64,000 nt of DNA, from NCBI RefSeq assembly GCF_001642955.1, contig NZ_LWSK01000004.1, forward strand, positions 1 through 64,000. The letters are read 5' to 3'. Shown here piece by piece: positions 185-7,413 of this stretch (position 1 is its first letter; each line of letters begins with the position of its first letter). The notes beneath the pieces were generated by a model. The model saw only the letters and a program-made list of their open reading frames with translations. It searched no databases and was not told the DNA's origin. Source of the stretch: Rubripirellula obstinata. GTDB lineage: Bacteria; Planctomycetota; Planctomycetia; Pirellulales; Pirellulaceae. The translations under genes were made by a program, and so were the position numbers.

Positions 185-1510
185 TTACCGAACTCGGCAG
201 CGGAAACGGATCGTGGCACTTTCGCCGACGCGAAGCTTGTCGGTCAACTTCCAGATTAGTTGCAACGATTCACCTTCGTTGGGCATCGTTTCAAACTCTG
301 CACCCGCACTGCACGTTTGGCTTTCCGCGACGTATTCCAGCCGCGTCGTCAGGTTGTCCGTCAGCACGACTTGGTTGACGGCTGAATCGCCGACGTTTTC
401 GACGCGGATGGCAAAGTTGACGATGTCGCCTGGCTTGGCGTCGGGGCGATCAGCCAGTTTGCAAATCTGCAATCGTCCCGCTTCGGGGAATTCGTAGATC
501 GTCAGCCCTTCGACGCTCTGGTCGCGAGTCAGCACGGGAGCCTTCAAGTCCTCGATCGCCGCTTCCAGCGATTCGTTAGCTGTCCATGCGACCGCAGCCA
601 ACGCGAGTTCTTCGACCAACGCTTTCTGGTCGTCACGCAGTTCGCTGATTTGGTCGAACGTTAAACCGACAAGTGCCGCCAACACATCGGTGGCTTCTTC
701 GATTTGCAGAATCCCTTCAACTGGCACGCCACGATCACGATGCCGCATCGCATCGAGCGAGCGTGCGACTTCGGCATGCCCGAGTTCGATGGATTCGCCG
801 ATCACGACACCGCCTTCATTGACTTCCAGATTGTTGGCACCAATTTGGCGATCGATTCCGGCCAGTCCAACGGCGTGATCACCTGAAAGAGCACCCGTGA
901 TTTTGCGGACTGATTTGAAACGCGGTGCGTAAACGCAGACACGATTACTGGCTTTGACTTCGATGTCGCCCGCTTCGGTCGTGTAGTGGACGATGGTGTC
1001 TTCGGGTTGCAGTCCGACGATGGTGTCATCGCGGCGAACGCGGGCACCGGGTGAATGGTCGCCACCGTCACACAGGAATTCTTGGCCGTCAATTCCATAA
1101 GCGTTTTGAGGGCCCATCGGCGGCGTGATCACGTGCGGAGTCGTGTTGCAGGGCTGGCCGCAACCACAAGCCGAACCACACGAACTGCCACCACATGAAA
1201 TATCGCCGCATGAATTGTCGCCGCATGCACCGGATTGGCAGGATTCGACTTGAAAACCAACTTGCGTCACGCCTGCGTTGGCTGACATGTTGACGGGTGC
1301 GCTGGCGAGCGGCGCGGATGGTTGAAGTGGAGCCTGCTGACTAGCTTGAGCGGGCGGCCCGGTCCTTGGCGGAATCTCCCTTACCGGCATTCCCCCCGCC
1401 GGCATCCCCGCATTCGATGCAGTTGTTTGGATCGACGGTGACGCGCAGCCGGACGCAACCAACACGATGCCGGATAGCGTCAAGATAAACTGTGTCAATG
1501 AAAGTCGCAT
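185..1510 (-). CDS. Lipoprotein with Cys-rich patch and C-terminal DUF11-type domain
   Basis: Predicted envelope lipoprotein of 441 residues. The N-terminus (MRLSLTQFILTLSGIVLVASGC) is a lipoprotein signal with the acceptor Cys at residue 22. A low-complexity Pro/Ala/Gln stretch follows, then a patch of repeated SCG units (NSCG, ISCG, SSCG, SACGCG). The middle is unrecognised. The last ~90 residues resemble the DUF11 repeat fold of bacterial surface proteins (a KPGD motif, then ENVGDSAVNQVVLTDNL). I chose the ATG at 1510; a GTG seven codons upstream (1531) is in frame. It follows the two upstream minus-strand genes at short distance, so all three are probably one transcription unit of envelope proteins. 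The domain suggests a structural or adhesive role, but the exact function is unknown. The Cys patch might bind metal or form disulfides, which is inference. Confidence 0.72.
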   Translation of the reverse strand: MRLSLTQFILTLSGIVLVASGCASPSIQTTASNAGMPAGGMPVREIPPRTGPPAQASQQAPLQPSAPLASAPVNMSANAGVTQVGFQVESCQSGACGDNSCGDISCGGSSCGSACGCGQPCNTTPHVITPPMGPQNAYGIDGQEFLCDGGDHSPGARVRRDDTIVGLQPEDTIVHYTTEAGDIEVKASNRVCVYAPRFKSVRKITGALSGDHAVGLAGIDRQIGANNLEVNEGGVVIGESIELGHAEVARSLDAMRHRDRGVPVEGILQIEEATDVLAALVGLTFDQISELRDDQKALVEELALAAVAWTANESLEAAIEDLKAPVLTRDQSVEGLTIYEFPEAGRLQICKLADRPDAKPGDIVNFAIRVENVGDSAVNQVVLTDNLTTRLEYVAESQTCSAGAEFETMPNEGESLQLIWKLTDKLRVGESATIRFRCRVR

Positions 1511-1546
1511 TGCGGCCGTCCGTTGGTTCACTAAGAGGTAATTCGT

Positions 1547-2392
1547 CTACTGCTGCGTCGCTGGATACTGAGTCGCCGGATACTGAGTCGCTGGATACTG
1601 CGTCGCCGGATACTGGGTCGCCGCAGAAACCACTTCCGGCTTTACGATCGGTGCCCAGGCGGGGGAACCGAAAAAGAATCGTGGCATCAGTGCTGGTGAT
1701 CTTGGCGGTGCGACGCTGCCGATGCGGACGATCGCAACAGGGCGACCGAAACGGTCGGCGACTTCCAATGCGTCCTGGTAATAAGTCGTTTCGATCGGTC
1801 GCTCGGCCGCTTGAGTCTGCGGAAGCGGCGATGCGGTTTGCGGATCTTCCAGATAGACCACTCGAGTCACCATTTGTCCGTCCAGTGCCGCTTGAATGTC
1901 GTCCTCGTCAAGGTAAACCTCGATGGGATACTTCGTCGCCAAGCCTGGTGGCGGATACGTGCGATCGATCACTTCGATCGTCGGGTACAGTTCCGCACCT
2001 TCGTAGCCTGGGATCGTTGTCATCTTGAATCGATAGACGCTGCCAACCATCAATCCGGCTTCCAGGTCTGGTTCAGTTTCCATGAACGTGTCCGAACTGG
2101 ACAACGCGAATTCGGTTTTTCCGGGGCCATGGAAAGCCACCGGTTGAAAGTAGGTCATCACGGGGCCGCGAACGTTACGCTGCATCGCTCCGATGTAACC
2201 CGGTGGCATGTCGCTGCGTTGCAGGCGATGTTGTCCTGCACCGATCGGGCTGCCTTGGCCCAGGTAGCTGGACGGGTCGGCTGCGTTTGCTGATTCGACC
2301 AGCGCCCCAGTCAGCGAGGCGACCGTCGCGATCAACGTCACGGCGATTGCCGCCGAGGTTGATTTCAAAGTGGATGCGATTGAACGGTTCAT
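1547..2392 (-). CDS. Secreted protein with C-terminal PATQY tandem repeat
   Basis: Predicted exported protein of about 281 residues with a Sec signal (MNRSIASTLKS, a hydrophobic core, then ESANA before ADPSS). The mature part contains a domain also found in the next upstream gene: compare VYRFKMTTIPGYEGAELYPT here with LYRLKVTNIQARPGVELYPT there, followed in both by a TRVVYLEDP/TKVIYLPDP-like strand and a short AIVRIG/AIIRLG strand. The C-terminus is five near-identical PATQY units. I chose the ATG at 2392 because the signal peptide begins there; in-frame ATGs at 2407 and 2431 would extend it. It sits between two other envelope genes on the same strand. Function is unknown; shared ancestry with its neighbour is clear by eye. 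Confidence 0.72.
   Translation of the reverse strand: MNRSIASTLKSTSAAIAVTLIATVASLTGALVESANAADPSSYLGQGSPIGAGQHRLQRSDMPPGYIGAMQRNVRGPVMTYFQPVAFHGPGKTEFALSSSDTFMETEPDLEAGLMVGSVYRFKMTTIPGYEGAELYPTIEVIDRTYPPPGLATKYPIEVYLDEDDIQAALDGQMVTRVVYLEDPQTASPLPQTQAAERPIETTYYQDALEVADRFGRPVAIVRIGSVAPPRSPALMPRFFFGSPAWAPIVKPEVVSAATQYPATQYPATQYPATQYPATQQ
1550..1624 (-). repeat. 15-bp tandem repeat encoding PATQY units
   Basis: Five near-perfect 15-bp units at the 3' end of the secreted-protein gene encode PATQY repeated to the C-terminus. Single-base differences between units (CTGAGTCGC versus CTGCGTCGC type) are mostly silent. An array of this kind is prone to slippage, so copy number may vary between strains without shifting the frame. 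Confidence 0.85.
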
Positions 2393-2443
2393 CGTTCGGG
2401 TTCTCATGCGAGAGGTAAAGCCAGCTTCCAAATCGTTTCAAAC

Positions 2444-2484
2444 AAAAAACGCGGTGCGATGTTTCCATCGACACCGCGTTTTTG
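2444..2484 (-). terminator. Rho-independent terminator or attenuator between two envelope genes
   Basis: A GC-rich hairpin (arms AACGCGGTG(T)CGATG and CATCGCACCGCGTT on the minus strand) is followed by a run of six T. It is flanked by A/T runs on both sides, so it could act in both directions. It lies after the stop of the Met/Gly-rich lipoprotein gene and before the next minus-strand gene, and so may end or attenuate the transcript inside the cluster. Confidence 0.8.
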
Positions 2485-2511
2485 CAATTCATTCAGTCCA
2501 GACGATCAAGC

Positions 2512-3972
2512 TTACTGGTTACAGTTCGGATCGACTCGTTGGCTGGCGTGTTGGTACAGCCCGCGGCCTGCTGGAACACCTGGATTGATGTTCTGCTCGG
2601 TGATCTTCACGCGGCTAACAGGGTTGGGATAACTGTATCCCGGTTGTTGCCGAACGTTGATCTTCATCTTTTCCACTGGACGCGGGATGTGCATCGGAGT
2701 GTGGTTCTTGATGACGTGCTTCTTCAATCCAGCGGGCGACCCCAATGGAATGTGAGGTGGTCCGGGAAGCCCAATCGGTGTGCCGGTGATTGGCATGCCG
2801 TATTGAGGTGCCGTCATGCCAGCGACCATACCGGGCAAGCCCATAGGAGCCGAAGCACATTGTCCACCGCCAGGTCCGCCACCACCAGGTCCGCCGCAAC
2901 CTTCGGTCATTGCTGCTGCGAATGGAGCAGGCAATCCTGCGATCGGTGGCATCATGACGCCGGCCGAAGCGATTCCGCCTGAACCAGCCATTTCGATGTC
3001 CTTGTCGCCCAAGCGAATGATCGCCAGGATCGAACCGCGACGGTCGGCTTCGACGATTGGATCGACGCCTGGATCAAGTCGCGTGCTAACAAGAGTATCG
3101 ATACCGGCCAGAGCTGGACCTTGGAAGTCTGGATCTGGAAGGTAGATGACTTTGGTGACGAAGTTGCCGGTCAGCACTTGGTCAAAGTCTTCTTCGGTGA
3201 ACTGAACGGGCACCGAGTTGTGAGCAAGGTAGGCACCGGTGCGAGGATTGGCGTAGGCCAGTTCAAGCGTTGGGTACAGTTCAACACCGGGACGAGCCTG
3301 AATGTTGGTCACCTTCAAGCGATACAAACCGCCTTGAGGAAAGTTCTGACGAGCCGGCACGACCAACGGTTCGCTGTCGAACATCGATGCGCCGGTTGCG
3401 TCGTACTTGACTTGCATGCCTTCGGGGCTGCCGAAGGTGACTTGAACGGTTGACGGAACACTGGCCAGCATCGGAGCACTGGAAAGAACTCCGCCGCCTT
3501 GTGGGATGTTTGATCCCAGTCCGCCACCGCCGCCCATGCAGGAACCTGATCCGCCGCAGGATCCGCCGCCGCAAGAACAGTTGTAGTTCACTTGATTAAC
3601 GGCAGGCTTACCGGCGGACGCTGAAGTGCCGGACATTGGAAGCGGTGCACTTTGCATGACTCCCATGGGAGCCGCACCGATGGCACCCGGTGGCATTGGA
3701 CCACCGCCCATTATTCCCGGCGGCATCCCGCCACCCATCATTCCACCGCCCATCATTCCCGGGCCGCCCATGGGACCGCCCATCATTCCTGGGCCGCCCA
3801 TCGGGCCGCCCATCATTGGCGAACCCATGACTCCGGGACCGGGACCACCGACACCGGGGCCGGGCTGTGCGAGCCTTTGTTCGGGTGGCAGATTATGGCG
3901 AACCGGTGCACACCCGGTGGCGATCAACGCCGTGGCCGCCAGTAGCGACAATTGAGTGACGATTCGTTTCAT
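2512..3972 (-). CDS. Lipoprotein with Gly/Met/Pro-rich repeats and Cys-rich patch
   Basis: Predicted lipoprotein of 486 residues: the signal MKRIVTQLSLLAATALIATGC has a lipobox Cys at residue 21. Residues ~35-120 are almost entirely Gly, Met and Pro in PMGGPGMMGG-like repeats. A Cys/Gly patch follows (CSCGGGSCGGSGSC). The central part carries the domain shared with the next gene downstream (LYRLKVTNIQARPGVELYPT, TKVIYLPDP, SILAIIRLGD). A second Gly/Pro-rich tract and a basic C-terminal tail follow. I chose the ATG at 3972 because it starts the signal peptide and has GGGGGA just upstream; the frame stays open to 4113. It is first in the three-gene unit. Low-complexity, Cys-containing lipoproteins like this fit planctomycete envelope material, but I know of no assigned function. 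Confidence 0.75.
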   Translation of the reverse strand: MKRIVTQLSLLAATALIATGCAPVRHNLPPEQRLAQPGPGVGGPGPGVMGSPMMGGPMGGPGMMGGPMGGPGMMGGGMMGGGMPPGIMGGGPMPPGAIGAAPMGVMQSAPLPMSGTSASAGKPAVNQVNYNCSCGGGSCGGSGSCMGGGGGLGSNIPQGGGVLSSAPMLASVPSTVQVTFGSPEGMQVKYDATGASMFDSEPLVVPARQNFPQGGLYRLKVTNIQARPGVELYPTLELAYANPRTGAYLAHNSVPVQFTEEDFDQVLTGNFVTKVIYLPDPDFQGPALAGIDTLVSTRLDPGVDPIVEADRRGSILAIIRLGDKDIEMAGSGGIASAGVMMPPIAGLPAPFAAAMTEGCGGPGGGGPGGGQCASAPMGLPGMVAGMTAPQYGMPITGTPIGLPGPPHIPLGSPAGLKKHVIKNHTPMHIPRPVEKMKINVRQQPGYSYPNPVSRVKITEQNINPGVPAGRGLYQHASQRVDPNCNQ

Positions 3973-4219
3973 CGTATCCCCCGTTCCTTGGGTAATTCGT
4001 GAGCGTCGGGTTTCGGGACCGACGCCGGCTGTTGGGAAGGTGCGTTTGCCTTCCAATGGCAGCCGCATGTGTTTTCTGGCTGGACTTGCCAAGCGATCGC
4101 TCTTTAGGATCACTCTGCAACTCCATTTTGCAATCGAACCGGACGCGCCGGAATGACTGCTTAGGGGGTCATCGGCATGTTGACACCTGAATCTTTGAAA
4201 AAACCGTCATAACCATCCC

Positions 4220-5280: not shown

Positions 5281-5368
5281 GTAGGCCGGAACAAGCGCAG
5301 CGCAGTTCCGGCAATTGCATGGTATTGCGCCCGATTGCCGGAACTGCGCTAAGCTTGTTCCGGCCTAC
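5281..5368. repeat. Palindromic intergenic repeat, family A copy 1
   Basis: Arms GTAGGCCGGAACAAGC(G)CAGCGCAGTTCCGGCAAT and ATTGCCGGAACTGCGCTAAGCTTGTTCCGGCCTAC surround a short loop. Copies 2 and 3 are at 10260-10347 and 16717-16834. The element separates the secreted-protein gene from the prenyltransferase gene, and an in-frame ATG for the latter (5319) happens to lie inside it. Confidence 0.9.
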
Positions 5369-5471
5369 ATCAAACGTCTACCAATGCTGCACTCTCAACG
5401 GAAACACGGTTGGTCTACAATCAAGCAAACCAACATGCTTCCTTGTAGAGTCCCGCACAGAGTCATTCGCC

Positions 5472-6443
5472 TTGTCCAAACCCGCTAATCGCCAGCCACC
5501 TTCCGCCTTGTTCGCTTGGGCACAACTTGTCCGACTACCGAACGTCTTTACCGTCCTCGCCGACGTCGGTGCCGCGTTCTTGCTGGTTTCCGGTGGACCG
5601 ACACCGATCGGACGCTTGGCCTGCGTGGCGGTTGCCGGTGTTTTCCTTTATTGGGCCGGCATGATCTTGAACGATGTTTTTGACGTCGATATTGATCGTC
5701 AAAAACGTAGCACGCGACCGTTGGCGTCAGGATTAATCTCAATCGGTGCCGCCAAGACGGCCGGTTGGTTGCTGTTGATTGTCGGTGTCTTGGTTGGCGG
5801 TGCCAGCGGATATATTCCGTCGGCGAATTATGAATCGACCTGGTTGCCAATGGTGATCGCCAGCCTGCTTGGCGTGACGATTGTCGCGTACAACGGCCCG
5901 CTCAAGAAAACTCCGATCGCGCCCGTTGCAATGGGCGGTTGCCGAGTGCTTAGCTTTTTACTTGGTGCATCACCGCTGCTGGGGACAGCCGACGGGTTCA
6001 CGATTCCAAAGTACGTGCTGGGAATCGGCGTCGGGATGGGAGTCTACGTGATGGGGCTGACCCAGTTTGGTCGTCGTGAAGCGGAAGGTGGCCCGTCGTT
6101 GAACTTGCCGACCGGCACGTTGGTGACACTGTTCGGAGCGGTCTTGTTGGCCGTCGCACCGCAATTGCAACGAGCACCGATCGGATGGCATCTGGCAGAT
6201 TTGCGATTCACGTTCCCCATGCTGATCGGACTGATCGCCTTCCCCGTCGTCGTGCGAGCTTTCCGAGCAGTACGCGATCCCACACCGGCCAAGATTCAAG
6301 TCACGATGCAAATTGGAATTCTAACCATCATCCCATTGTCAGCCGCGTTCGCGTTCTTGGGCGCAGGTCAGGTCTGGGGATTGGCGATCTTCGGGTTGGT
6401 GGTCCCCGCCTTGCTGCTGGCGAAAGCGTTTCGCGTAACCTGA
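5472..6443 (+). CDS. UbiA-family prenyltransferase
   Basis: Polytopic membrane protein of the UbiA superfamily, which moves a prenyl group onto an aromatic or other acceptor. The first Asp-rich motif is intact: N67, D68, D71 and D75 in NDVFDVDID, counted from the TTG at 5472. Seven or more hydrophobic segments follow. The second Asp motif of classical UbiA enzymes is not obvious; the equivalent loop reads TQFGRREAEGG, as in EboC-like and other divergent members. Start choice is uncertain: the frame is open from an ATG at 5319, but that lies inside the palindromic repeat and would add a non-hydrophobic, atypical 51 residues, so I prefer the TTG. The acceptor cannot be told. No ebo or quinone genes flank it. 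Confidence 0.8.
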   Translation: MSKPANRQPPSALFAWAQLVRLPNVFTVLADVGAAFLLVSGGPTPIGRLACVAVAGVFLYWAGMILNDVFDVDIDRQKRSTRPLASGLISIGAAKTAGWLLLIVGVLVGGASGYIPSANYESTWLPMVIASLLGVTIVAYNGPLKKTPIAPVAMGGCRVLSFLLGASPLLGTADGFTIPKYVLGIGVGMGVYVMGLTQFGRREAEGGPSLNLPTGTLVTLFGAVLLAVAPQLQRAPIGWHLADLRFTFPMLIGLIAFPVVVRAFRAVRDPTPAKIQVTMQIGILTIIPLSAAFAFLGAGQVWGLAIFGLVVPALLLAKAFRVT

Positions 6444-6459
6444 ATCGATTGCGATGAGA

Positions 6460-7413
6460 TCACTTTTCCGAAAGCGGTGTGTCGCGGAATTGTTGATGGC
6501 AAGACTTGCAATTCGCCGAGATGCGTTGAGAGATTTGATTTAGGTTGCCAGGCCGCATGCCGTTGCGTAACTCGGTCTCTAGCTTTTGAGCATCCGTCTC
6601 TGAGTCTCGCAGTAATTGCAAAATCGGTTTTGGCCAGTTCTGTGTTTCTTCGCTACGAAGCAGTTCTGTGAAATGCTCTCGCAAGATCAGAGCTTCGTGC
6701 GCAGGATCCAAGTCGGGATGTTGCTGAGGCGACTTCCACTGGGCGGCAGCGATCAGCTTCAAATAATGATGCGTGTGTTCGATGTTCACCATCGCCTGGG
6801 CGACCGCAGGCACTTGTTCCACTTCTTGAAACTCAACTGCCAACTGGTCCAGTGTTTCGTCGGGCACCCGCTTGGCCCGATCCGCGGATTGGTACAACCC
6901 GCGATAATTCGGGTCGGTTCCCGCCATTTCCAGCACGGTCCTGGCGTCGGACGGCGGGATCATACCGCCTGCGACGCAGGCGGCGCTGGCCGCGGCTGGA
7001 CTTCGGTGTTTGCCGTGGTGGCAATGAATGTAGATCGGGCCACCAAGATCGCGAAACGCCTTGGCCAGTTCCATCACACGTTGATCAGGGACGCCATCAT
7101 ATCCGTGCGGCAAATGAACGTATCGCAACCCATGTCGTTTGGCGGCTTTGACGTCCGGCCTCGCACCATCGACACTGATGATCGTTTTGATGCCAAGGTT
7201 AGCGAGTTCTTCAAAAGCTTGGTCATCGGCGGGCAGGCTGCCTGAAATCACACCAGCGTGAAGCTGAACTGAATTCGGCAAATGGTCAAAGCTGCATTTC
7301 CGCGGGTAGGCTTTCACTGCCTCACCAGCGTCGTGGCGAGTCTCTTCGGCGACACCAATCAACGAGCAGCAAATTATTGCAAATAAGCAGCATAGAGAGA
7401 TGAGTTTCTTCAT
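6460..7413 (-). CDS. Secreted Cys-phosphatase fused to C-terminal heme-c domain
   Basis: 317 residues with a signal peptide (MKKLISLCCLFAIICCSLIGVAEE). Residues ~45-150 have the dual-specificity/tyrosine phosphatase layout: GVISGSLPADDQAFEELANL, GIKTIISVDG and the active-site loop HCHHGKHRS, a CX5R signature with Cys131. The rest (~195-317) is helical, with an EHTHHYLKL segment and a C-terminal CKSCH heme-binding motif at 302-306, as in cytochrome c-prime-like four-helix proteins where CxxCH lies near the end. I chose the ATG at 7413 because the signal peptide begins there. The frame stays open to 7560. It converges with the prenyltransferase gene (16 bp between stops). Both motifs lie in one uninterrupted frame. 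A periplasmic redox-linked phosphatase is inference; the substrate is unknown. Confidence 0.8.
   Translation of the reverse strand: MKKLISLCCLFAIICCSLIGVAEETRHDAGEAVKAYPRKCSFDHLPNSVQLHAGVISGSLPADDQAFEELANLGIKTIISVDGARPDVKAAKRHGLRYVHLPHGYDGVPDQRVMELAKAFRDLGGPIYIHCHHGKHRSPAAASAACVAGGMIPPSDARTVLEMAGTDPNYRGLYQSADRAKRVPDETLDQLAVEFQEVEQVPAVAQAMVNIEHTHHYLKLIAAAQWKSPQQHPDLDPAHEALILREHFTELLRSEETQNWPKPILQLLRDSETDAQKLETELRNGMRPGNLNQISQRISANCKSCHQQFRDTPLSEK

Follow-up and report, generated by a model that had tools for sequence, protein, structure and literature searches.

A gene of Rubripirellula obstinata encodes a protein, predicted to be exported, in which a DSP/PTP-fold domain with a CX5R loop is joined to a class II c-type cytochrome domain. 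Both halves are of known kinds; joined, in an architecture conserved across a phylum, they are new. The fusion was undescribed in the open-access papers we searched, and subscription journals may hold a description. In our judgement the chances are about even that the protein is an exported Cys-phosphatase whose catalytic thiolate is redox-coupled to the His/Met heme of the fused domain.

Architecture of the fusion protein

On the minus strand of the window, i.e. the whole stretch of 64,000 nucleotides that was analyzed, the frame reads from an ATG at 7413 to a stop codon that ends at 6460 (Table 1). The first-pass annotation had seen a signal peptide, the HCHHGKHRS loop and a C-terminal CKSCH motif in one frame, and the 317-aa ORF indeed contains all three. 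A simple heuristic with guessed start codons found a strongly hydrophobic N-terminus in 107 of 124 homologues and a lipobox-like motif in 67 of them. Judged by its sequence, the fusion protein is exported, either to the periplasm or to the surface. No paralogue was found in the R. obstinata genome, where the fusion gene is single copy. A UbiA-family prenyltransferase is encoded on the other strand at window 5319-6443, facing the 3' end of the fusion gene, which is hence probably a single-gene unit.

Table 1. Positions of the fusion gene and of its features in the window
Feature	Residues	Window positions	Strand	Basis or remark
Whole CDS, secreted PTP-fold/heme-c fusion protein	317 aa + stop	6460..7413	(-)	homologues
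Signal peptide, MKKLISLCCLFAIICCSLIGVA	1-22	7348..7413	(-)	signal-peptide-like on inspection
DSP/PTP-fold domain	44-192	6838..7284	(-)	PTP-SAK; TpbA profile; Foldseek
Asp aligned with TpbA general acid D105	D106	7096..7098	(-)	alignment with TpbA
P-loop HCHHGKHRS	130-138	7000..7026	(-)	putative nucleophile C131, phosphate-binding R137, H136
Class II c-type cytochrome domain, four-helix bundle	203-312	6478..6807	(-)	Cytochrom_C_2; profile; models
Proposed distal ligand, helix 1 of heme domain	M208	6790..6792	(-)	191/191; cf. 1s05 M12
CKSCH heme-attachment motif	302-306	6496..6510	(-)	class II signature Arg R310 next

The proposed joining of a CX5R phosphatase fold to a class II c-type cytochrome domain held up in profile matches, AlphaFold and Foldseek alike. 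With an alignment of 61 relatives, AlphaFold gave a heme-free two-domain model (mean pLDDT 91.9, pTM 0.85), in which an alpha/beta domain is followed by four long helices (residues 203-223, 237-253, 262-283 and 288-310). The part that carries CxxCH is thus predicted to fold as a heme domain should, namely as a four-helix bundle. One confident model with a pTM of this size suggests that the two domains may be held in a fixed mutual relation. In Foldseek searches with the whole chain, TpbA ranked first (4r0s, TMt 0.74), and DUSP23, SsoPTP, PRL and others also matched. The search profile was built from the 61 relatives; profile search of the PDB returned TpbA, the top relative, at E 2.2e-12 and cytochrome c' at E 5e-7. 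A further profile search matched cytochrome c' at E about 2e-7. The Pfam search that had been advised, for DSPc/PTP and Cytochrom_C_2, matched the window protein to PTP-SAK (E 1.5e-4) and Cytochrom_C_2 (E 0.0037; 18.7 bits, under the curated 26.5), single-sequence matches that fall under the curated cut-offs for both domains. When the same 61 relatives were scanned one by one, 53 matched PTP-SAK and 52 matched Cytochrom_C_2 at E <= 0.01, the best at 1e-8.

Conservation and distribution

Joint conservation of CX5R and CxxCH had been named as the test of the pairing, and the two motifs did prove to travel together. Among 124 full-length homologues, the Cys and Arg of CX5R, CxxCH and M208 were each present in 124. 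A larger set of 191 sequences, comprising these homologues and 85 more, thinned to <85% identity, has D82, Y105, C131, R137 and M208 in all 191 members, and H100 and H136 in 190. The CxxCH residues occur in 190 of 190, one sequence being gapped there. Since the motifs are co-conserved across the homologues, a chance origin of their pairing is excluded.

Counting strong matches together with weak, phosphatase-only ones, 190 of 392 sampled Planctomycetota genomes contain a relative. A scan of genome contigs turned up related stretches numbering at least 468, of which 80 were kept. Nearly all of these 80 are planctomycete, with Rhodopirellula, Stieleria, Thalassoglobus, Botrimarina and Aeoliella among them, and a few are labelled Verrucomicrobia. 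In the phylum of one Verrucomicrobia-labelled carrier, full-length matches (E <= 1e-20) were found in 2 of 241 genomes, the carrier included, and a third genome matched with the phosphatase part only. The fusion architecture is an old family centered on Planctomycetota and sporadic in Verrucomicrobia-labelled genomes. A plasmid collection contributed two planctomycete plasmids only, on which the products are named 'dual specificity protein phosphatase' or 'hypothetical protein'. Viral contigs contained no relative, so a viral or phage origin is unsupported.

Several loci that looked like exceptions to the co-conservation were rejected as such. L120 keeps CX5R, with TC replacing HC (TCETGRDR), and also the Met and CxxCH; it is a divergent member of the fusion family, perhaps with altered catalysis. 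The L130 sequence stops at a contig end, and close to such an end L174 has lost its heme domain, probably by a frameshift. L127 is a fusion of another kind. Two loci in other planctomycetes, L126 and L128, encode separate, secreted phosphatase-only relatives; with the loops HCKNGKHR and HCHAGRHR, fewer than 200 aa and no CxxCH, they are natural heme-free comparators.

CX5R loop and putative heme site

The residue that follows the P-loop Arg is Ser or Thr in canonical enzymes. In the family it is mostly Gly (109 of 191) or Ser, as S138 in the window protein. Likewise, the position of D106 holds Asp in 135 of 191 homologues; in the other 56 Asp is absent, the replacements being S, K, N, R or A. 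With a non-universal Asp and mostly Gly after the Arg, catalysis may be weak or altered. TpbA (PA3885), a periplasmic dual-specificity phosphatase of Pseudomonas aeruginosa, is likewise exported and has the same fold, with the P-loop HCKHGNNR compared with HCHHGKHR in the window protein, and its general acid D105 (PMC4409338) aligns with D106. In contrast to the fusion protein, it has no heme domain and carries Thr after the P-loop Arg; the two share 19% identity.

The near-invariant H136 occupies the position of His155 in AtPFA-DSP1, which replaces the missing Asp acid/base and whose mutation removes 95-98% of activity; the canonical Asp acid is dispensable in that enzyme (PMC9038691). Because of this placement, and because the Asp is not universal, a P-loop-His-assisted mechanism is plausible across the family, with D106 helping in the clade of the window protein. 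The PFA-DSP/Siw14 inositol-pyrophosphate phosphatases, to which AtPFA-DSP1 belongs, share the Cys-x-x-Gly-Lys-His-Arg loop positions with the catalytic His in the same place; however, they are eukaryotic and without heme, and the sequence match is weak (1xri, E 0.0087). We infer phosphatase activity on an extracytoplasmic phosphate ester.

In the heme domain, M208, the two Cys and the His of CxxCH, and R310 are the only invariant columns and the remainder is poorly conserved, which is the pattern that would be expected of a heme-binding site. Alignment and models also contain the four-helix bundle and the C-terminal CxxCHxx[YF]R that mark Cytochrom_C_2, i.e. the cytochrome c556/c' family, and the helix-1 Met is found as in c556. 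To our knowledge, the known members of that family stand alone as heme proteins, with no enzyme domain attached. From the CxxCH motif, the fold and the cytochrome c assembly proteins encoded in the genome (PF01578), we infer that heme is attached.

M12 of Rhodopseudomonas palustris cytochrome c556 (1s05) is a heme ligand, whereas 1a7v, a cytochrome c' relative, is five-coordinate and in our alignment has a non-ligating aliphatic residue at the M12 position. M7 of b562 falls in the same region of helix 1. In the AlphaFold model, M208 sits six residues into the first bundle helix, near its N-terminal end. Alignment by hhalign to single cytochrome sequences covered the C-terminal half only, and M208 was equated with c556 M12 from helix position and invariance. 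M208 is probably the sixth ligand of a low-spin His/Met heme. As an invariant Met in helix 1, it makes the heme domain probably closer to the His/Met electron-transfer cytochrome c556 than to the five-coordinate, NO-binding cytochrome c'.

With the isolated heme domain, Foldseek ranked NaxLS (Kusta0087/Kusta0088) of Kuenenia stuttgartiensis first (E 0.11, probability 1.00), followed by Rhodobacter capsulatus cytochrome c', at weak E-values and probabilities of 0.99-1.00. NaxLS is also a class II-type planctomycete heme bundle, but it pairs two small cytochromes in an anammox heterodimer that lacks a phosphatase. Its distal heme ligand is a Cys. The heme-domain profile had a second match in the R. 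obstinata genome, an exported 322-aa protein (L222, 775-1743) that has a long N-terminal part and ends in CDACHAEYR. By its appearance it is a further heme protein of the class II type.

Proposed coupling of heme and thiolate

Oxidation of the nucleophile switches Cys-phosphatases off. Apart from the two Cys of CxxCH, the fusion family has no invariant Cys but C131, and there is hence no conserved resolving Cys to protect it. This lack, together with the strict co-conservation of both sites, suggests that the heme may be redox-coupled to C131. In the mechanism we propose, the CX5R loop would hydrolyse an extracytoplasmic phosphate ester, with C131 as the nucleophile, R137 binding the phosphate and H136 assisting proton transfer like His155 of AtPFA-DSP1. 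The heme would trade electrons with the respiratory chain or with the surroundings and would so couple the redox state to the C131 thiolate. Such coupling could gate the enzyme, with oxidised heme/Cys being off and reduced being on. Alternatively, the heme could hold C131 reduced in an oxidising compartment.

Tentatively, and at slightly less than an even chance, we regard the family as a widespread exported class in which a His/Met heme is electronically coupled to a PTP-fold Cys, be it as a redox-switched phosphatase or as a new heme-thiol redox enzyme. No phosphatase with its own covalent redox cofactor was found in the literature searched. The pairing, intact in almost 200 distinct relatives, suggests that a redox cofactor is connected to an extracellular phosphatase. 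Should the coupling be real, the protein would offer a self-contained model, open to direct testing, of how redox state controls dephosphorylation beyond the cytoplasm. A type of function would also be given to a conserved Planctomycetota family that is annotated publicly, if at all, only as phosphatase. The sCache_heme (DUF3365/Tll0287) sensors are likewise of an extracytoplasmic signalling type with a conserved covalent c-type heme (PMC12889525), but they have a Cache fold and kinase, MCP or GGDEF outputs and are unrelated to phosphatases or class II cytochromes.

Fusions can be passive, and the heme domain of an active phosphatase might be a mere docking or electron-shuttling module that exerts no control over the active site. 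Its poorly conserved surface would agree with this, and M208 and CxxCH could be explained by heme retention alone. However, tethers without function are usually lost somewhere, and the 191 sequences include no full-length member with an intact phosphatase and a lost heme, so that we consider a passive module unlikely.

If the PTP scaffold served a thiol or sulfur oxidoreductase, with C131 binding a sulfur or other small anionic substrate and the heme removing electrons, the protein would perform dehydrogenation instead of hydrolysis. This reading could account for the invariant electron-transfer-type heme site and for canonical catalytic aids, D106 and S138, that are not universal, and the TIGR01244 sulfur transferase and BLH_phosphatase families are matched weakly. 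These matches miss both DUF442/Blh cut-offs (TIGR01244, 21.1 bits vs 85.85; NF040641, 19 vs 625). Moreover, CX5R with its phosphate-binding Arg is invariant, whereas the loop of the DUF442 structure 3gxg aligns as one residue shorter (CX4R), a difference in length that would favor phosphate over sulfur chemistry. No recurrent neighbor gene family points to sulfur oxidation either, and we rate such an oxidoreductase as quite improbable.

The heme domain had also been likened to cytochrome c-prime, with redox state or NO as what its heme could sense. The class II bundle stands, but M208, being invariant, speaks for a six-coordinate heme of the c556 kind and puts gas or NO sensing behind electron transfer and redox sensing in likelihood. 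A gas sensor that switches the phosphatase through NO or CO on the heme is very unlikely: cytochromes c' are similar in sequence and fold, NaxLS is described as NO-binding (PMC11897245) and the Cache superfamily includes periplasmic NO sensors that carry heme c (PMC12889525), but M208 should fill the distal site, at a position where the cytochrome c' relative of c556 has its non-ligating aliphatic residue.

For the redox-coupled phosphatase, gene neighborhoods named neither substrate nor redox partner through a recurrent neighbor in the clustered loci. Flanking ORFs were clustered at up to 110 loci, at 91 of which the fusion gene was clustered too; with its own antisense frames set aside, no neighbor family extended beyond about 8 loci. 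The families seen by eye (DUF1559-like, sulfatase-like and PSD1/DUF1501-like) are all common in planctomycetes, and PADLOC gave no match that would indicate a defence link. On plasmid pPL62-1 of Planctomyces sp. SH-PL62 (L224, 7008-7583), a gene for DUF3365, which is the sCache_heme family (PMC12889525), and cytochrome c oxidase genes lie ~1-3 kb from a homologue, possibly by coincidence. In the window itself, three adjacent minus-strand ORFs at 185-4113 encode exported proteins. Stretches rich in Cys and Gly, such as CSCGGGSCGG, occur in two of the three; one contains a DUF11 domain, and the other two had no Pfam match.
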